Under the pieces are notes generated by a model. That model saw nothing but the letters and a program-made list of their open reading frames with translations, did no database searches and was not told the DNA's origin. Shown here piece after piece: positions 1 to 29,491 of a stretch of 32,415 bases of DNA. The position numbers were made by a program, and so were the translations under genes. Origin of the DNA: a virus; IMG/VR virus record IMGVR_UViG_3300046723_000024, positions 1-32,415 of that record. One strand, 5' to 3'. The first letter of the stretch is position 1, and each line of letters opens with the position of its first letter.

Positions 1-593
1 TTACACCCTTCTCCCGCGATGAGTTCGAAGGGAGCTATCTTGGATCCGAGGATCCGGTAGAAGCTGCGCGGCAGTTCGTGGTCCGCTGCTTCCTGGGACA
101 CGGCACCTGCAGCATGGACCCAACGGACTCGAATGGATTCCGAAGCCGTGACATCCGGGCCGGGAAAAGCTACGCCCGCGAATGGGCTGGCGTCCCTGCA
201 GCGATCGCGGTTGCCGCGAATCGTCTCTCAGGCGTCACGATCGAAAACCTCGACTGGCGGAAGCTCATCCCGAAATTTGACGGCCCGGACACATTCTTCT
301 ATGTGGATCCGCCTTACCTCGCGGAAACGCGAAGCGCGGGCGGCAAGGGCTACGTCCATGAGATGACCACGGAATGCCATCGCCAGCTCGCTTGGATGCT
401 GCAGCAGGTGAAGGGCAAGGTTGCGATCAGTGGCTACCCGTCGAGCCTCTACGAAGGTCTCTACTCCGCGTGGAGATCGGACACGAAACACACCACCGCG
501 AACGGCCAGAAAGGCTCCGTTCCGCGCGTGGAGCGCATGTGGATGAATTACGAGAACGTCCAAGTGGTGGCAACCCCACCCGAACCACAATAA
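1..593 (+). CDS. N6-adenine DNA methylase, D12/Dam class, 5'-truncated
   Basis: The frame is open from base 3 without a stop, so the N-terminus lies left of the window. The visible 197 codons contain the catalytic motif IV DPPY (in FFYVDPPYL, codons starting near base 300), followed by the family's typical helix and a VAISGYPSSLY strand. This is the arrangement of D12-class adenine-N6 methyltransferases (Dam family), which transfer methyl from S-adenosylmethionine to adenine in DNA. The S-adenosylmethionine motif I (FxGxG type) is not in view. Phages use such orphan enzymes to resist host restriction or mark their DNA; no partner restriction enzyme is recognisable beside it. The C-terminal tail VVATPPEPQ recurs almost unchanged at the end of the DUF551 gene ending at 1592. 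The internal ATG-like starts are not real starts. The family assignment is confident; the target site is unknown. Confidence 0.85.
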   Translation, partial: TPFSRDEFEGSYLGSEDPVEAARQFVVRCFLGHGTCSMDPTDSNGFRSRDIRAGKSYAREWAGVPAAIAVAANRLSGVTIENLDWRKLIPKFDGPDTFFYVDPPYLAETRSAGGKGYVHEMTTECHRQLAWMLQQVKGKVAISGYPSSLYEGLYSAWRSDTKHTTANGQKGSVPRVERMWMNYENVQVVATPPEPQ

Positions 594-669
594 AACAATG
601 ATAGACCATCCTGCATCCGAATCACTGCAACCCGTAGCCGAAGAGAAAGACTTGGTGGGGGTTGCCACC
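566..669. repeat. Inverted repeat pair across a gene boundary, copy 1
   Basis: GGTGGCAACC at 566-575 (end of the methylase gene) is the exact reverse complement of GGTTGCCACC at 660-669 (start of the next gene). The same two blocks occur again at 1559-1568 and 1606-1615, so this is a dispersed repeat as well as an inverted one. In RNA it could close a stem around the methylase stop and the next start. Confidence 0.6.
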
Positions 670-957
670 CACGACTTGTTAGCCCTGCAACGCGTGGCCG
701 ACATCGCCGCGATGTGCTGCATCGACCTTGGGGCGAATCTCTCATCCGCTCACAAGGAATACATGGCCGGGGAAATCTCGAACGGCGCGTTCCAGCATGT
801 CCTGGCACGCCACACCCGGATGCACGCCGCACTCCGGGAAGCTGGCTACACCGCCGAGCACGCGATCTTCGGATGGCCAGTGAAGCCTGGGGGTCTTTTC
901 TCTGTGGCTAACGTAAAATGTGCTGCCACCGGTAGCGAAAGGAGCGCCCATGAGTGA
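598..957 (+). CDS. Small phage protein of unknown function
   Basis: A 119-residue protein that I do not recognise. It is mixed charged/alanine-rich and probably helical in the middle (LLALQRVADIAAMCCIDLG). It starts with ATG four bases after the methylase stop, with an A-rich leader (TAAAACA) and no Shine-Dalgarno sequence. Its residues 20-28 (LVGVATHDLL) come from a DNA block that recurs at 1601-1625 and, in a degraded form, near 2065-2085. Its end overlaps the next gene by 8 bases, which suggests translational coupling. It is probably an accessory gene of the early or middle region. The reading frame is supported by its tight fit between neighbours. Confidence 0.6.
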   Translation: MIDHPASESLQPVAEEKDLVGVATHDLLALQRVADIAAMCCIDLGANLSSAHKEYMAGEISNGAFQHVLARHTRMHAALREAGYTAEHAIFGWPVKPGGLFSVANVKCAATGSERSAHE

Positions 958-1249
958 AACTGAAACGAAATTGCCGGTTGGTCAGCCACGGCTTGTTGTG
1001 CCTCTTCCGGAGTATCGCTACCTTGGCGACTTCGCGGCCTGCGAAATGTGGGCGGCTCGCCACATGACTTGCGACACCTGCCGTGTCTCATGGACTGGAT
1101 GCTGGGACAACTTCCAGTGCCCTGAATGCGGCGCGGGCGAACTGCCTAGCTGCGAGCCATCGTCCGGTATGACGCTCGGCAAATTACTTCGGCACAACGA
1201 ACCAAGCCCATCCGTGGGCGCAAATGAAAAGCAAAACAATGGACTGTGA
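950..1249 (+). CDS. Small zinc-ribbon protein
   Basis: A 99-residue protein with two cysteine pairs, CDTC (near residues 42-45) and CPEC (near 59-62), the spacing of a zinc ribbon. It also has a CxxxxA pair near residue 31. This is one of the few genes here with a good Shine-Dalgarno sequence (AAAGGAG at 938-944), which decides for the ATG at 950 over upstream alternatives. Zinc ribbons of this size bind nucleic acid or protein; the actual role is unknown. Its last codons (PSVGANEKQNN) lie in a DNA block that recurs upstream of the gene at 1971, where it is non-coding. It overlaps the next gene by about 11 bases. Confidence 0.65.
   Translation: MSETETKLPVGQPRLVVPLPEYRYLGDFAACEMWAARHMTCDTCRVSWTGCWDNFQCPECGAGELPSCEPSSGMTLGKLLRHNEPSPSVGANEKQNNGL
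1212..1241 (+). repeat. Start-site repeat, copy 1
   Basis: CCGTGGGCGCAAATGAAAAG followed by CAAAACAATG leads into the DUF551 gene. A near-identical block (two substitutions and a three-base gap) lies at 1947-1973 and ends in the ATG at 1971. The shared A-rich stretch GAAAAGCAAAA directly before ATG looks like the translation-initiation leader of both genes and favours 1239 as the start here. Confidence 0.65.
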
Positions 1250-1592
1250 AACATGTGGAACCGTTGGAATTGAAGAAGGGGCCGACTGCCCTAGGTGCGG
1301 ATTGCGACTGAGAAGCTTATGCCCATCGGATGCGGCGGCTGGTTCTGTGTGGCGACCGATGGAAACGGCGCCGCACGACGGTGTGACATGGTTGATCTGC
1401 TACGAATCGGATACCGGCGAAACAGGAATACTTATCTTCGACTCAAACCCCGAGGACAAAGACCAAGAACTCCCTGACGAGTGGACGGATGGATTCCGTG
1501 TATGGCACCCGACTTATTGGATGCCACTACCAGAACCTCCTACACAGAACGCCTCTGTGGTGGCAACCGCGCCACCGACACCCGAAAGCTAA
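1239..1592 (+). CDS. DUF551 domain protein with N-terminal zinc ribbon
   Basis: A 117-residue protein. Residues 1-25 hold two CxxC knuckles (CETC, CPRC). Residues about 39-100 match the DUF551 pattern seen in many phages: a start WRPMETAPHDG, a central β strand, and the signature end WMPLPEPP. DUF551 has no established function. I chose the ATG at 1239 because the repeated A-rich leader (also before 1971) ends there; an in-frame ATG at 1224 would add MKSKT and cannot be excluded. The C-terminal tail SVVATAPPTPES resembles the tail of the methylase gene ending at 593, because the underlying DNA is repeated. Confidence 0.75.
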   Translation: MDCETCGTVGIEEGADCPRCGLRLRSLCPSDAAAGSVWRPMETAPHDGVTWLICYESDTGETGILIFDSNPEDKDQELPDEWTDGFRVWHPTYWMPLPEPPTQNASVVATAPPTPES

Positions 1593-1615
1593 CCGACGTC
1601 CTCGCGGTTGCCACC
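1559..1615. repeat. Inverted repeat pair across a gene boundary, copy 2
   Basis: GGTGGCAACC (1559-1568) at the end of the DUF551 gene and GGTTGCCACC (1606-1615) after its stop are exact reverse complements. They are the same two words found at 566-575 and 660-669. In both places the second arm continues as CAC, two variable bases, then CTTGTT. Confidence 0.6.
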
Positions 1616-1745
1616 CACTCCTTGTTCGAGGGCCTAACTACCAAAAATCTCCGATACAAAAACAACACAACGGCGGATGGCCGAAACCGTAAGGTTAGGC
1701 TCGGGCTTCGAAAACCGAACTACGCATCCGCCACCCTCTCCGAAA
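1593..1745 (+). other. Non-coding stretch with two interleaved inverted repeats
   Basis: There is no convincing gene here. GCCTAAC (1632-1638) pairs with GTTAGGC (1694-1700), and GGCGGATG (1672-1679) pairs with CATCCGCC (1725-1732). The arms alternate (A, B, A', B'), which is the layout of a pseudoknot rather than nested hairpins. A long frame crosses this region (1481-2122) but its arginine/threonine-rich translation looks like a shadow. Confidence 0.4.
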
Positions 1746-1940
1746 ATGAAACGACCCAAGAAAAATCCCGACCTAGTCGAAGCGCTCTCACATCTCCGGG
1801 ACTGGTCCGTAATCGAGCGGAAACTCACGGAAGATCCCGGCGAGCACAAAACGTGGCGTTACGTGGAAGACTGGGCAAAGGGGACGGCTCTGAAATACCG
1901 GGTCGAACTCGCCCCGCCCGTCAGCCCCTCGAACGCCTAA
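1746..1940 (+). CDS. Small hypothetical protein
   Basis: A 64-residue, charged protein starting MKRPKKNPDLVEALSHLRDW and containing KTWRYVEDWAKGTALKYRVEL. The frame extends upstream to 1677, but that part is low-complexity and crosses the inverted repeats, so the ATG at 1746 is preferred. The amino-acid balance (helical, tryptophans, alternating charge) looks genuine. I do not recognise the family. It is followed by the start-site repeat that leads into the next gene. Confidence 0.55.
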   Translation: MKRPKKNPDLVEALSHLRDWSVIERKLTEDPGEHKTWRYVEDWAKGTALKYRVELAPPVSPSNA

Positions 1941-1946
1941 ACGCTC

Positions 1947-1973
1947 CCGTGGGAGCAACTGAAAAGCAAAATG
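1947..1973 (+). repeat. Start-site repeat, copy 2
   Basis: CCGTGGGAGCAACTGAAAAG followed by CAAAATG closely matches 1212-1241 and ends on the start codon of the gene at 1971. Here the block is intergenic, whereas the first copy is the coding end of the zinc-ribbon gene. Confidence 0.65.
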
Positions 1974-2207
1974 ACACCGAACGAACTCGAAGCCTACGAC
2001 GCCATGATGAAATCCCGCGACCAATGGAGGGAGCGAGCCGAGCGATTGGAGAGCTTATTCCCATCGGGACCCACGCCTTGTTCACCCTCTTTGAATCACC
2101 AGAAACCAACGAAACACAATGAACGCCTACAAAATAAACGACTGCGAAATCTACGCCGCTCACACCGCCAAGGAAGCCATCGACATTTACGTCGCCGAAA
2201 CGGGTGA
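1971..2207 (+). CDS. Small helical protein, probably frameshifted near 2050-2075
   Basis: The first 27 residues (MTPNELEAYDAMMKSRDQ and on to AERLE) look like a genuine helical phage protein. Beyond about base 2050 the frame becomes proline- and then arginine-rich, and it runs 89 bases into the next gene, giving an RRSHRQGSHRHLRRRNG tail that is only an out-of-frame copy of that gene. The neighbouring frame instead reads IPIGTHALFTLFESPETNETQ and stops at 2120-2122, forming a perfect ATGA overlap with the next start. A single -1 change would therefore restore a protein of about 50 residues. I give the literal frame end; the biological end is probably 2122. Confidence 0.45.
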   Translation: MTPNELEAYDAMMKSRDQWRERAERLESLFPSGPTPCSPSLNHQKPTKHNERLQNKRLRNLRRSHRQGSHRHLRRRNG

Positions 2208-2352
2208 AGGTTGGAACACCGATGACGACTCCGTGGAAACGATGAGTCCCGAAGATCAATGGCGGGATGAAGAAACGCCCGATGTGGAAGAAACCATTGC
2301 CGACGTCCTGGCTCGCACCACCAAGCCGGGCTTCATCGGTGCTATTGGGTGA
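2119..2352 (+). CDS. Small acidic hypothetical protein
   Basis: A 77-residue, strongly acidic protein (MNAYKINDCEIYAAHTAKEA, then WNTDDDSVETMSPEDQW). The ATG follows an A-rich leader (GAAACACA), typical of this genome. The opening βαβ-like pattern, with alanine-rich 'AHTAKEAIDIY', is common among small phage proteins of unknown function. The acidic character could suit a DNA-mimic or inhibitor, but nothing here proves it. Confidence 0.65.
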   Translation: MNAYKINDCEIYAAHTAKEAIDIYVAETGEGWNTDDDSVETMSPEDQWRDEETPDVEETIADVLARTTKPGFIGAIG

Positions 2353-3229: not shown

Positions 3230-3320
3230 CGGTCGTTCGGACAGTCAATAGAACCTTCATGTCAGGAATCACGGATTGAAGCCCGCTTGACATTTTTGAG
3301 AATGACCACACCAATAAACA
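3230..3320 (+). other. Non-coding stretch with a possible -35 element
   Basis: TTGACA at 3287-3292 is a perfect -35 word. At the proper distance (17 bases) the only candidate -10 is ACCAAT, or AATAAA slightly further on, both poor. Any transcript from here would enter the terminator hairpin directly, so it might produce a short structured RNA. No ORF is supported. Confidence 0.3.
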
Positions 3321-3396
3321 ACCTCCGCGCTGCTTTCTACCCGCCCTGTTTCATTCCAGGGGCTTCAACGGGTAGCGAGCGGCGCGGGGGTTTTTT
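3321..3396 (+). terminator. Long intrinsic terminator with an internal second hairpin
   Basis: Arms 3321-3343 and 3369-3391 pair at 22 of 23 positions, three of them G·U pairs valid only in a + strand RNA. Inside lies a second small hairpin, CCCTG (3344-3348) with CAGGG (3357-3361). The structure is followed by six T residues (3391-3396). It should end the transcript of the left accessory genes, only 10 bases before the HNH gene start. Confidence 0.85.
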
Positions 3397-3405
3397 GTTT
3401 CAACA

Positions 3406-3861: not shown

Positions 3862-4610
3862 GCTGGTTCGCGCTCCATCGATCGGACGAGCTTTTCGCCT
3901 TGTTGGAGGAAGACCCAAAGGGCTTCTGTCTCCTCACCTTGATTGCGGCGAGGGCGAGATTTCAGGAAGATCCATGTCCGGTGACCGGCCTTCGGTATGG
4001 CCAGGCGTTTGTGGGCGATTTCAGGAAGGCGGGAATCGCCAGCAGGCAGGCTTATAGGCTCTCCATCAGAAGACTAACTGCCCGCGGCTTCGTGACCATC
4101 CAAGGAACCAACAAGGGAACCATCGCAACCCTATTGCCACAAGCGATTTACACCATTTCCACGCCAACAAAAGAACCAACAAAAGAACCAACAAAGAACC
4201 ATCAAGGAACCAACCAAGAACCACTAACCAACAAGGGAACAAGGGAACAAGGGAACAACGATGATCCGTCACTGTTCGTTTTTGAAGAACCTTCGGAACC
4301 GAAGAAGAAAGCCCGGTTCAATCCGATGACGACCAGGATCAAGAACAAGACCCCCGAAATGGACATGATCGGGGCGTGCTTCGGGGCACCTGAGGAGATC
4401 GTGTGGACCACGCTTGAAAGCCAATTACTCAAGCGGCTGGAGCCAACCCACAGCGAAATCAAGCTCATCCGCGAGTTCTACGCCTACGAGATCGAGGACA
4501 ACAATGGATACCGGAACCGGAGCGTAAAGGGACTTCTCCAAAACTGGTCCGCGCAACTCATCGCCGCCCGCGATTTCTTCAACAAGAACCCCCACCTGCC
4601 AAGATCATGA
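3858..4610 (+). CDS. Replication initiator-like protein, winged-helix N-terminus
   Basis: A 250-residue protein. Residues 1-95 resemble a winged-helix DNA-binding domain (LLTLIAARARF, AGIASRQAYRLSIRRLTARGF), as in phage O-like replication proteins. Residues about 103-134 are a polar TKEP/TNKGT linker encoded by a tandem DNA repeat array. The C-terminal part (after about 180) is helical and could bind the helicase. It sits directly upstream of the DnaB-like helicase and overlaps it by ATGA, the usual pairing of initiator or loader with helicase. An origin inside the initiator gene is known from lambda O and relatives. It could alternatively be a helicase loader; no Walker motif is present, which argues against a DnaC-type ATPase. 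Confidence 0.7.
   Translation: MSWFALHRSDELFALLEEDPKGFCLLTLIAARARFQEDPCPVTGLRYGQAFVGDFRKAGIASRQAYRLSIRRLTARGFVTIQGTNKGTIATLLPQAIYTISTPTKEPTKEPTKNHQGTNQEPLTNKGTREQGNNDDPSLFVFEEPSEPKKKARFNPMTTRIKNKTPEMDMIGACFGAPEEIVWTTLESQLLKRLEPTHSEIKLIREFYAYEIEDNNGYRNRSVKGLLQNWSAQLIAARDFFNKNPHLPRS
4100..4258 (+). repeat. Iteron-like direct repeats inside the initiator gene (candidate origin)
   Basis: Tandem units start with CCAACAA or similar and end in GAA: 4164-4175 and 4176-4187 (identical, CCAACAAAAGAA), 4188-4198, 4199-4209, 4210-4220, a partial unit 4221-4227, 4228-4239 (CCAACAAGGGAA), then CAAGGGAA twice to 4255. An upstream copy of CCAACAAGGGAA lies at 4108-4119. The strand is almost free of T, giving strong strand asymmetry. 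The position within the probable initiator gene matches lambdoid origins. Confidence 0.6.
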
Positions 4611-5980
4611 GCACCGACATCATCCACATTCCCACCCACTACGCGATCCCGCACAGCGTCACGCACGAAAAAGACGTGGTCTCGTGCTTCCTGAACCACC
4701 CGAGGACATTCGACGATTTCCCCCACATCACCGAAGACCACTTCCACCTTCCAGACACGCGCACGGCATTCAAGTTTGCCCGCCACCTCTACGACCAGCG
4801 CGGATTCGACGTCACAGACGTGGCCACGCTGCTCGACGAGATTAACCGGGTCGTCGGAATCGACAAGGTTGGAGGGGTCAGCGGATTCGCGGACCTCATG
4901 AACCGGGCATCCTTCCAGCGCGATCTTCCGTTCCACGTCGAGCGACTCAACCAATACCTCGCCAAGCGGCTCGCCATTGCGGCCGGCAAGGAGCTTGTGA
5001 GGGCCGCGTTCGAGGATGACGTGTCCGATGTAGTGGAAGCCGCCAGCGGGCCGATTACGGCCATCCACGATGCCCTCTGCGCCGCGAGGCCGACACTTTC
5101 GACCAAGCAGACGATCATCGAGTCGTTCGCCGCCTATGAGGCGCGTGTGAGGGGCAATGAAAAGGCGATGGGAATCGAGACGATCCCGGAAATCGACGAA
5201 TACCTGCGCGGGCTACATCCGGGGCGGGTGATCATCATCGGGGCCTATTCGGGCGGCGGCAAATCGGTTCTCAGTTCGCAAATCATCACCACCCAGGCAT
5301 TGGATGGAATCCCGGTGGGTGAAATCAATTACGAGATGCGCGAGCGGGATTCAATGGACCGGAAAATCATCCAAGTCTCACGAATCCCTTCCCAAGCGTT
5401 CATGGACCCGCTCACATACGCCCGGGAAAACAACTGCCCGCCGGTCAACGAGGGGTTCATGCGAGCCGTCAACCGGGCGAACAGAGAGCTTTCCGCCGCT
5501 CCGATCCACATCCGCAAGCCCCACAATTCCCAGCTTCGCACGCTGCTGGCGATGATCCGGAAAATGGTCCGCGAGAACGGCGTGAAAGTCATCGCCATCG
5601 ACTACCTTCAAAAGATCCGGTGCAAGGCGGATAGCCGCGAGGCAGAGATCACCGAAATATCAGGCGCCATTTTCGAGATCGCCGGTGAACTCGGGATTTC
5701 GATCCTGCTGCTGTCACAGATCAACGAGAGGGGCGACACCAAGCACGGAGTGGTCGCTTTCGAGGACTGCGACGGCTATCTCGTGATCGAGCAAGAGCGG
5801 GACAAGCAGGCCGAAAACTTCGGGCAGCACTACCACATTTTGCTGGCGAAGGATCGCCACAACGGGAACACCGGGAAAAAAATCTGCCTCGTGTTCGACC
5901 CCGAGACCGTGCGATTCATGCACGGATTCGTTGACAGGAAAAAGAAATCCAGCGGTCCGCAGAAAAAGCCGGGATACTGA
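4607..5980 (+). CDS. dnaB: DnaB-like replicative helicase
   Basis: A 457-residue protein of normal length for this family. An N-terminal helical domain (about 15-150) precedes the RecA-like ATPase: Walker A GAYSGGGKS (residues 212-220), Walker B VIAIDYLQ (328-335), a sensor strand LLLSQINERG (367-376), and the C-terminal KDRHNGNTG near residue 418 that carries the arginine-finger region. It would form a hexamer unwinding the replication fork using ATP. It is translationally coupled to the initiator-like gene by ATGA. No primase domain is fused and no DNA polymerase lies in the window, so host replication proteins are probably recruited. Confidence 0.92.
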   Translation: MSTDIIHIPTHYAIPHSVTHEKDVVSCFLNHPRTFDDFPHITEDHFHLPDTRTAFKFARHLYDQRGFDVTDVATLLDEINRVVGIDKVGGVSGFADLMNRASFQRDLPFHVERLNQYLAKRLAIAAGKELVRAAFEDDVSDVVEAASGPITAIHDALCAARPTLSTKQTIIESFAAYEARVRGNEKAMGIETIPEIDEYLRGLHPGRVIIIGAYSGGGKSVLSSQIITTQALDGIPVGEINYEMRERDSMDRKIIQVSRIPSQAFMDPLTYARENNCPPVNEGFMRAVNRANRELSAAPIHIRKPHNSQLRTLLAMIRKMVRENGVKVIAIDYLQKIRCKADSREAEITEISGAIFEIAGELGISILLLSQINERGDTKHGVVAFEDCDGYLVIEQERDKQAENFGQHYHILLAKDRHNGNTGKKICLVFDPETVRFMHGFVDRKKKSSGPQKKPGY

Positions 5981-6012
5981 GCCGCGACAACCTCCAAGCC
6001 CAAATTCCAACG

Positions 6013-6246
6013 ATGAACACCAAAACCTGCCAATGGCGCGAAGATACCGAGGGACGATGGGACACCGAATGCGGACAATGCTTCGATTTCAACGATGGCG
6101 GACCGAAGGAAAACAAGGCGCTCTGGTGCCAATACTGCGGCGGCGAACTGATCCCTGTGCCGTTTTCTGAGAACTCCGCTGAAATTCCGATTTTGGAGCC
6201 AGTGATGACATCCCGCCCGTTCGGGCCGCCGAACGATCAGGCTTGA
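6013..6246 (+). CDS. Small zinc-ribbon protein
   Basis: A 77-residue protein with CGQC (residues about 20-23) and CQYCGGEL (about 39-46), a two-knuckle zinc ribbon. The second half is a short tail without clear structure. The pattern W-x-x-x-x-x-G-x-W-x-T-x-CGxxF is seen in many small phage proteins placed between replication and packaging genes, of unknown role. The ATG follows an A/C-rich leader (AAATTCCAACG) with no Shine-Dalgarno sequence. Confidence 0.7.
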   Translation: MNTKTCQWREDTEGRWDTECGQCFDFNDGGPKENKALWCQYCGGELIPVPFSENSAEIPILEPVMTSRPFGPPNDQA

Positions 6247-13229: not shown

Positions 13230-13263
13230 CGCCCGTCTTCACCCTGTGGAGGCGGGCGTTTTT
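13230..13263 (+). terminator. Intrinsic terminator before the tRNA gene
   Basis: Arm 13230-13242 (CGCCCGTCTTCAC) pairs with 13246-13258 over 13 positions including G·U pairs, loop CCT, followed by TTTTT (13259-13263). It would stop the head-gene transcript after the scaffold gene. Confidence 0.85.
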
Positions 13264-13295
13264 GATTTGACGTGCTCCCGGTGATACGGCAATCG
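13264..13295 (+). promoter_or_regulatory. Promoter-like repeat, copy 1 (drives the tRNA)
   Basis: GATTTGACGTGC directly follows the terminator and contains a -35-like TTGACG (13267-13272). Exactly 17 bases later lies CAATCG (13290-13295). A start seven bases on would be at about 13302, the first base of the tRNA. The same word and spacing occur at 13465-13496. The -10 match to TATAAT is poor, so a phage-modified or alternative polymerase is possible. Confidence 0.45.
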
Positions 13296-29424: not shown

Positions 29425-29491
29425 AGGGCGCACGCCAAATCAAAAACGCCTCGCCAAACCATCCATCAACCGTTACTAGAAACCCGAATCC

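Follow-up and report, generated by a model that had tools for sequence, protein, structure and literature searches.

Gene junctions at the head of a podovirus-like contig

The stretch of DNA analysed here in its entirety (32,415 nt, hereafter the window) is for the most part an ordinary podovirus-like genome of 32 kb, coding for an HNH endonuclease, O-like and DnaB-like replication proteins, a terminase, a head-tail adaptor, and the major head and tail proteins. Upstream of these replication, packaging and head genes lies a series of small genes punctuated by imperfect inverted repeats, which are numbered attC1 to attC5 according to the reading developed below, attC being the recombination site by which bacterial integrons swap small gene cassettes. 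The series starts with a D12-class DNA adenine methylase (3..593, +; phrog_56, E 1e-31; Pfam MethyltransfD12, E 2.5e-4, slightly short of the cut-off), whose 5' end is lost at the contig end, and whose last ~13 codons fall within attC1. It continues on the same strand with ORF2 (598..957, +; 119 aa), that starts in the attC1 loop and stops inside attC2, and ORF3 (950..1249, +; 99 aa, with C-x2-C pairs), that starts in the attC2 loop and stops inside attC3. ORF4 (1224..1592, +) combines a putative attC-encoded leader (CxxC...CPxC...CPSDAAA), a DUF551 body (Pfam, E 1.3e-5, residues 50-107) and an attC4-encoded tail, VVATAPPTPES, the boundary between leader and body being located at the R' box of the repeat. 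ORF5 (1746..1940, +; 64 aa) stops inside attC5, and ORF7 (2119..2352, +; 77 aa) lies behind this last repeat, with a 5' leader (2072-2121) common to a cassette of another virus contig, G018; no attC was found after ORF7.

Elsewhere in the window, an 87-nt near-perfect palindrome with an inner hairpin and a T-run (3313-3399) resembles a strong terminator and directly follows the early region, short imperfect repeats resembling CCAACAAAAGAACCA are arrayed inside the predicted O-like replication gene (4096-4250), and a 25-nt inverted pair, 92% complementary, occurs 16 kb apart (13255-13279 and 29426-29450), each copy near a gene end.

The initial annotation had singled out the word GGTGGCAACC, present on the plus strand at 566 and 1559, and its reverse complement GGTTGCCACC, at 660 and 1606. 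These positions were recovered, together with the common continuation of both right arms, each of which runs on as GGTTGCCACCCACnnCTTGTT, and no further copy of the exact word or its complement exists in the window. Also recovered were the near-identical tails described for two unrelated proteins, ENVQVVATPPEPQ on the methylase and QNASVVATAPPTPES on the DUF551 protein. Both tails extend beyond the conserved domains, as the DUF551 match extends only to residue 107 of 122, and the closest methylase relative (64% identical) ends in ...WLNY, without a tail. As a matter of words alone, the coincidence is just slightly out of the ordinary (a 10-mer formed a nearby inverted pair twice in 11 of 200 Markov-resampled windows), and further evidence was therefore required; the strong evidence is that of a covariance model and of the comparison with other genomes, rather than that of the words themselves.

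Structure and lineage of the putative attC sites

The left arm GTGGTGGCAACC, whose translation reads ...VVAT..., and the right arm GGTTGCCACCCACnnCTTGTT found at each gene end correspond to the two halves of an attC site. In attC1 (551..684, +), the outer boxes are R'' at 551-557 (CGAGAAC) and R' at 678-684 (GTTAGCC), and the arms (566-575 and 660-669) rank first in the window by duplex energy among all AACG...GTT pairs (-35.3 kcal/mol), attC4 ranking third. The latter (1544..1630, +; R'' ACAGAAC, R' GTTCGAG) has a 13-bp stem at 1559-1615. Self-comparison of the window revealed more diverged repeats at 1212/1947, 1304/2042 and 2070, and three copies absent from the initial annotation could be delimited: attC2 (906..1001, +; R'' GGCTAAC, R' GTTGTGC), and two copies with a long loop, attC3 (about 1192..1348, +; left arm CCCATCCGTGGGCGC, right arm GCCCATCGGATGCGGCGGCTGGTTC, R' GTTCTGT at 1342-1348) and attC5 (about 1928..2086, +; R'' CTCGAAC at 1928-1934, R' GTTCACC at 2080-2086). 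The repeats display the structural features of attC sites, namely an imperfect inverted repeat with outer R''...R' boxes and an inner stem, in which structure is conserved over sequence. When a cluster is taken as at least two close sites in the same orientation, each behind a small ORF, the window has five such sites on the plus strand within 1.6 kb, three of them significant and two supported, and at least four cassette junctions are present in this phage contig.

These designations derive from a covariance model, R1, built only from 13 attC sites of Luteolibacter pohnpeiensis, whose consensus comprises 17 pairs, 13 of them with compensatory change. R1 matches attC4 (39.3 bits, E 6e-9), attC1 (35.2 bits, E 9e-8) and attC2 (E 2e-6), all on the plus strand and with E-values that are rough because calibration was short; beyond the first 2.1 kb of the window, its best match has an E-value of 0.15. 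The match to attC3 is weak and partial (1272-1348, E 0.049) and that to attC5 is not significant (E 0.75); along with the site of a related virus contig, L014, these sites are missed because long loops are penalised by the model. As candidate sites, attC3 and attC5 are supported by alignment to virus copies rather than by the model: the right half of attC3 aligns to attC copies in the contigs G017 and G018, L014 has a similar unit (40-203), and two pieces of attC5 (1932-1974, 88%; 2041-2113, 74%) align to a single attC of G018. When bottom-strand DNA folds were compared with shuffles, attC4 (z -3.1) and attC1 (z -1.9) were stronger, and the energies of attC2 and attC3 were not below shuffles; folding energy alone is a poor test for such sites.

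The R' boxes of the five sites depart from the canonical consensus (R' G|TTRRRY, R'' RYYYAAC), which, taken strictly, lowers the claim of these putative sites to canonical attC membership. Most R' boxes of the Luteolibacter arrays also deviate from GTTRRRY, and the non-canonical R' therefore looks like a lineage variant.

A scan for the right-arm motif CGGATGCGGCGNCTTGTTC retrieved matches in other virus contigs, in a Luteolibacter pohnpeiensis contig and in a Verrucomicrobiaceae metagenome-assembled genome (MAG). The Luteolibacter genome contains 33 near matches (against one with a reversed control pattern), several per contig and on one strand, with attC-like sites every ~0.3-1.2 kb. The Luteolibacter arrays were located with this motif from related virus copies, so that R1 is not fully independent of the viral sequences. 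At E 1e-4 or better, R1 finds sites in 58 of 113 genomes of the order of Luteolibacter and in none of 29 genomes of other groups; at E 0.01, it matches 8 of 45 virus records (including the window, G014, G018, G016, G015 and G017), and the match to G032 is weak. Three Verrucomicrobia genomes were tested for the integron integrase (TIGR02249), and each had a match above the curated cut-off; 14 controls had none. In G012 and G017, the integrase is encoded about 1.1-1.2 kb from such attC sites. As an observation on gene order, both integrase genes (G017:C1:6356-7288, minus strand, L090; G012:C277:4386-5385, minus strand) share the strand of the attC sites nearby, a layout that is inverted relative to classical integrons. 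Verrucomicrobiota are already listed as an integron-bearing phylum (PMC8618304).

The host of the phage is probably a member of the Verrucomicrobiota, as suggested by the type of attC and by a CRISPR array of the Verrucomicrobiaceae MAG H1_MAG_00045 (L098, reverse strand, about 4537-6020; 25 repeats with a 61-nt period), one spacer of which, GTTGCGCCCATCGGATGCGGCGGCTTGTTCTG, equals an attC right arm. Such a CRISPR host may target cassette recombination sites, at the risk of targeting its own integron.

Cassettes shared among viruses, and alternative origins of the repeats

In the initial annotation, the repeats were suggested to be a boundary element, and two readings were offered, a site of recombination or gene insertion and an RNA signal that is translated in part. 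The insertion-site reading is the one borne out, the repeats being interpreted as integron attC sites; as for the RNA signal, partial translation does apply, and the element itself is better read as an insertion site. Whether the exact words would mark junctions in related viruses was also considered, and here the expectation failed: in IMG/VR, GTTGCCACCCACNNCTTGTT has no match and GTGGTGGCAACCNNNCCACC has five chance matches inside genes. The words are not conserved because the arms co-vary through compensatory mutation, conservation being limited to the hairpin plan and the R''/R' ends. A contig related by its large terminase (L014, IMG/VR; TerL 71% identical) carries a similar unit in its first 205 bases, about 5.4 kb upstream of the terminase gene, with left arm GAGAACGCCGAGCCCATCCGTGGGAGC and right arm GCCCATCGGATGCGGCGGCTTGTTCTCC; within each unit the arms pair, in spite of their divergence from one unit to another, which suggests that a hairpin is conserved. 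When 34 sites were aligned, both partners had changed in 14 of 17 pairs, and covariation amounted to 0.569 versus 0.145 when shuffled (0/500) and at most 0.137 in slid controls, figures that lean towards the model to which these sites (32 from virus contigs, the window included, and two from G017) were fitted. A DNA search of annotated phages gave no match, and related-locus searches using the helicase and the DUF551 protein as queries returned no relatives.

Gene content between sites differs from virus to virus, as had been predicted, and the homology shared with two otherwise unrelated contigs, G014 and G018, begins and ends at attC boundaries. G014 is a 166-kb phage contig with its own TerL and 17 sites in two clusters; G018 has six sites, a tyrosine integrase and an invertase, and only a weak terminase match. 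The window is 76% identical to G014 over ~240 nt (906-1146), starting exactly at the attC2 R'' and running through the ORF3 cassette, and an ORF3 homologue is encoded behind the matching attC (67% over 69 aa, E 7e-29). With G018, identity (78%, 910-997) extends exactly from R'' to R' and no further, and the leader from the attC5 R' to the next ATG (2072-2121) also aligns. Breakpoints at the predicted recombination boxes agree with what cassette recombination predicts. G017 encodes an integron integrase (TIGR02249, E 3.5e-105) and may therefore represent a piece of a bacterial integron and not a phage.

Could these repeats have another origin? RNA hairpins with no relation to integrons, serving termination or the coupling of translation where phage genes meet, would fit the overlap of genes at the hairpins, as well as the RNA folding suggested by the initial annotation, which yielded strong transcript hairpins at attC4 (z -3.7) and attC1. 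The stems, however, lack the U-run of an intrinsic terminator (CCCACnnCTTGTT), the conserved R''/R' ends at which homology breaks are explained only by recombination sites, and like structures are arrayed in bacterial genomes that carry an integron integrase, so that this origin is very unlikely; an effect of the hairpins on expression may exist alongside a role in recombination. A dispersed palindromic or MITE-like element inserted at gene ends, comparable to REP or Rickettsia palindromic elements, would likewise be short, palindromic, repeated, and overlap coding ends. It is extremely unlikely, given that the copies have little primary sequence in common, yet their arms stay paired, that the exact words are found nowhere else, that a single orientation is kept throughout between successive small genes, that no transposon ends or target duplications were seen, and that the covariance model matches arrays in genomes carrying an integron integrase. 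Plain gene duplication as a source of the repeats was rejected.

The contig being a single metagenomic assembly, with the array at its very end and repeated attC sites promoting misassembly, a bacterial chromosomal integron fragment may also have been joined artificially to a phage genome. Such a chimera at the head of the contig is nevertheless unlikely, considering the similar unit located upstream of the terminase in the related phage L014, the two site clusters and the ORF3 cassette of G014, and the common direction of all genes into the replication genes of the window.

The reading retained, and held with high confidence from the sequence comparisons, is that the repeats are attC sites of Verrucomicrobiota-type integron cassettes, and that the window from 1 to about 2086 represents a one-strand cassette array (methylase, ORF2, ORF3, DUF551 protein, ORF5) upstream of the phage genes, without an integrase on the contig. 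The window record, which may be a fragment, has no match to the integron integrase model TIGR02249, and the array therefore fits a cluster of attC sites lacking an integron integrase (CALIN). The bottom strand of each site, when single-stranded, would fold into a hairpin, and a host integron integrase would cut at the R' box (G|TT), so that cassettes could be inserted, removed or reshuffled, and the array would serve as the slot of the phage for small accessory genes, including a DNA methylase. IntI1 recombines the folded bottom strands of other phage attC sites (PMC9892861).

Translation through the sites and comparison with known systems

The tails shared by unrelated proteins can be explained by the position of the stop codons: as the upstream ORF stops inside the site, the VVAT tail is the translated attC left arm. 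The left arm AACGnnnnnGTGGTGGCA is read as N-x-x-V-V-A, and a similar tail terminates a DUF551-like protein of G018 (NVKVVAPPPQDPDS). On the other side, the next gene often starts in the attC loop, so that the right arm becomes an N-terminal leader. An ATG inside the site, with the next ORF running through R', was found for 13 of 32 sites in virus contigs, compared with bacterial arrays, where this was so at 8 of 97 (Fisher p 8e-5, sites within one contig being related and hence not independent events); these counts come from a broader sampling of hosts and a more stringent ORF definition than an earlier set (14/36 versus 0/40). Ribosomes are impeded by attC stems, an effect that is relieved when the site itself is translated (PMC8876359). 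Genes overlapping both arms would bring such relief, and the passage of ribosomes from either side would prevent the mRNA hairpin from closing.

When divided at R', the proteins yield leaders such as ...SLCPSDAAA|GS (DUF551 protein of the window), ...GDCPSDAAA|CS (L014) and MKLESLCPSDAAS|CS (N6/N4 methylase of G017). The leader MSETE...PVG... precedes ORF3 in the window and G014, or a Lar-like body in G018, and DUF551-like bodies occur behind three different leaders, the window copy being the only one to pass the Pfam threshold. We tentatively propose, with chances a little short of even, that attC constitutes a protein-domain junction in these viruses: the following protein would owe its start codon and its leader to the loop and right arm, in frame with the R' cut, each recombination event thus joining a standard leader (for example ...SLCPSDAA[AS][CG]S or MSETEx...PVG) to a new body, the bodies seen so far being DUF551, Lar-like, N6/N4-methylase and ORF3. 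For the DUF551 cassette of the window, the N-terminal peptide predicted under this leader model is MKSKTMDCETCG...CPSDAAAGS. A separate observation concerns a protein of another contig (L015:8287-8721, MSTNQAGKGDSPRP...), whose internal linker PPDAATCSGW resembles an attC right arm and is possibly a relic of an attC-mediated fusion; as an attC site, this right-arm relic (8486, PPDAATCSG linker) was rejected, without a convincing left arm.

CALINs are known in virulent phages (Qi et al. 2023, PMC9892861), with which the window has in common attC sites and cassettes mostly in one orientation, phage genomes without integrase, and a methyltransferase cargo. In contrast, the attC sites described here are of the Verrucomicrobiota type and off the GTTRRRY consensus, the next gene often starts in the loop, and the contigs are metagenomic. 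The sedentary chromosomal integrons of Verrucomicrobiota (PMC8618304) show the same hairpin plan, arm sequences, single orientation and short spacing, but here the sites are carried by a phage contig in which neither integrase nor attI was found, and a start codon in the loop is frequent in phage sites and rare in bacterial arrays. In class 1 integrons, short ORFs in attI1/attC and fused cassettes (PMC8876359) provide another case in which translation across a site influences the next cassette; these are short coupling ORFs, or fusions following attC loss, whereas apparently complete sites here encode in-frame downstream leaders. On this evidence, the putative array is of a known kind, the phage CALIN, and represents a new lineage in which the reading frames are arranged in an unusual way. 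What is new in these viruses is the frequent start of the following gene within the predicted attC loop, which gives that gene an attC-encoded N-terminus, and no earlier description of attC-encoded leaders was found in the openly licensed literature.

The attC-encoded leaders suggest a route to chimeric proteins through site-specific recombination and, if the domain-junction proposal is true, a site-specific system would shuffle the leaders and bodies of small phage proteins. At a broader scale, three virus contigs, among them this 32-kb podovirus-like phage and one phage of 166 kb, have cassettes of a bacterial integron lineage in common, the breakpoints coinciding with the recombination boxes, and phages may therefore collect and spread cassettes in Verrucomicrobiota.
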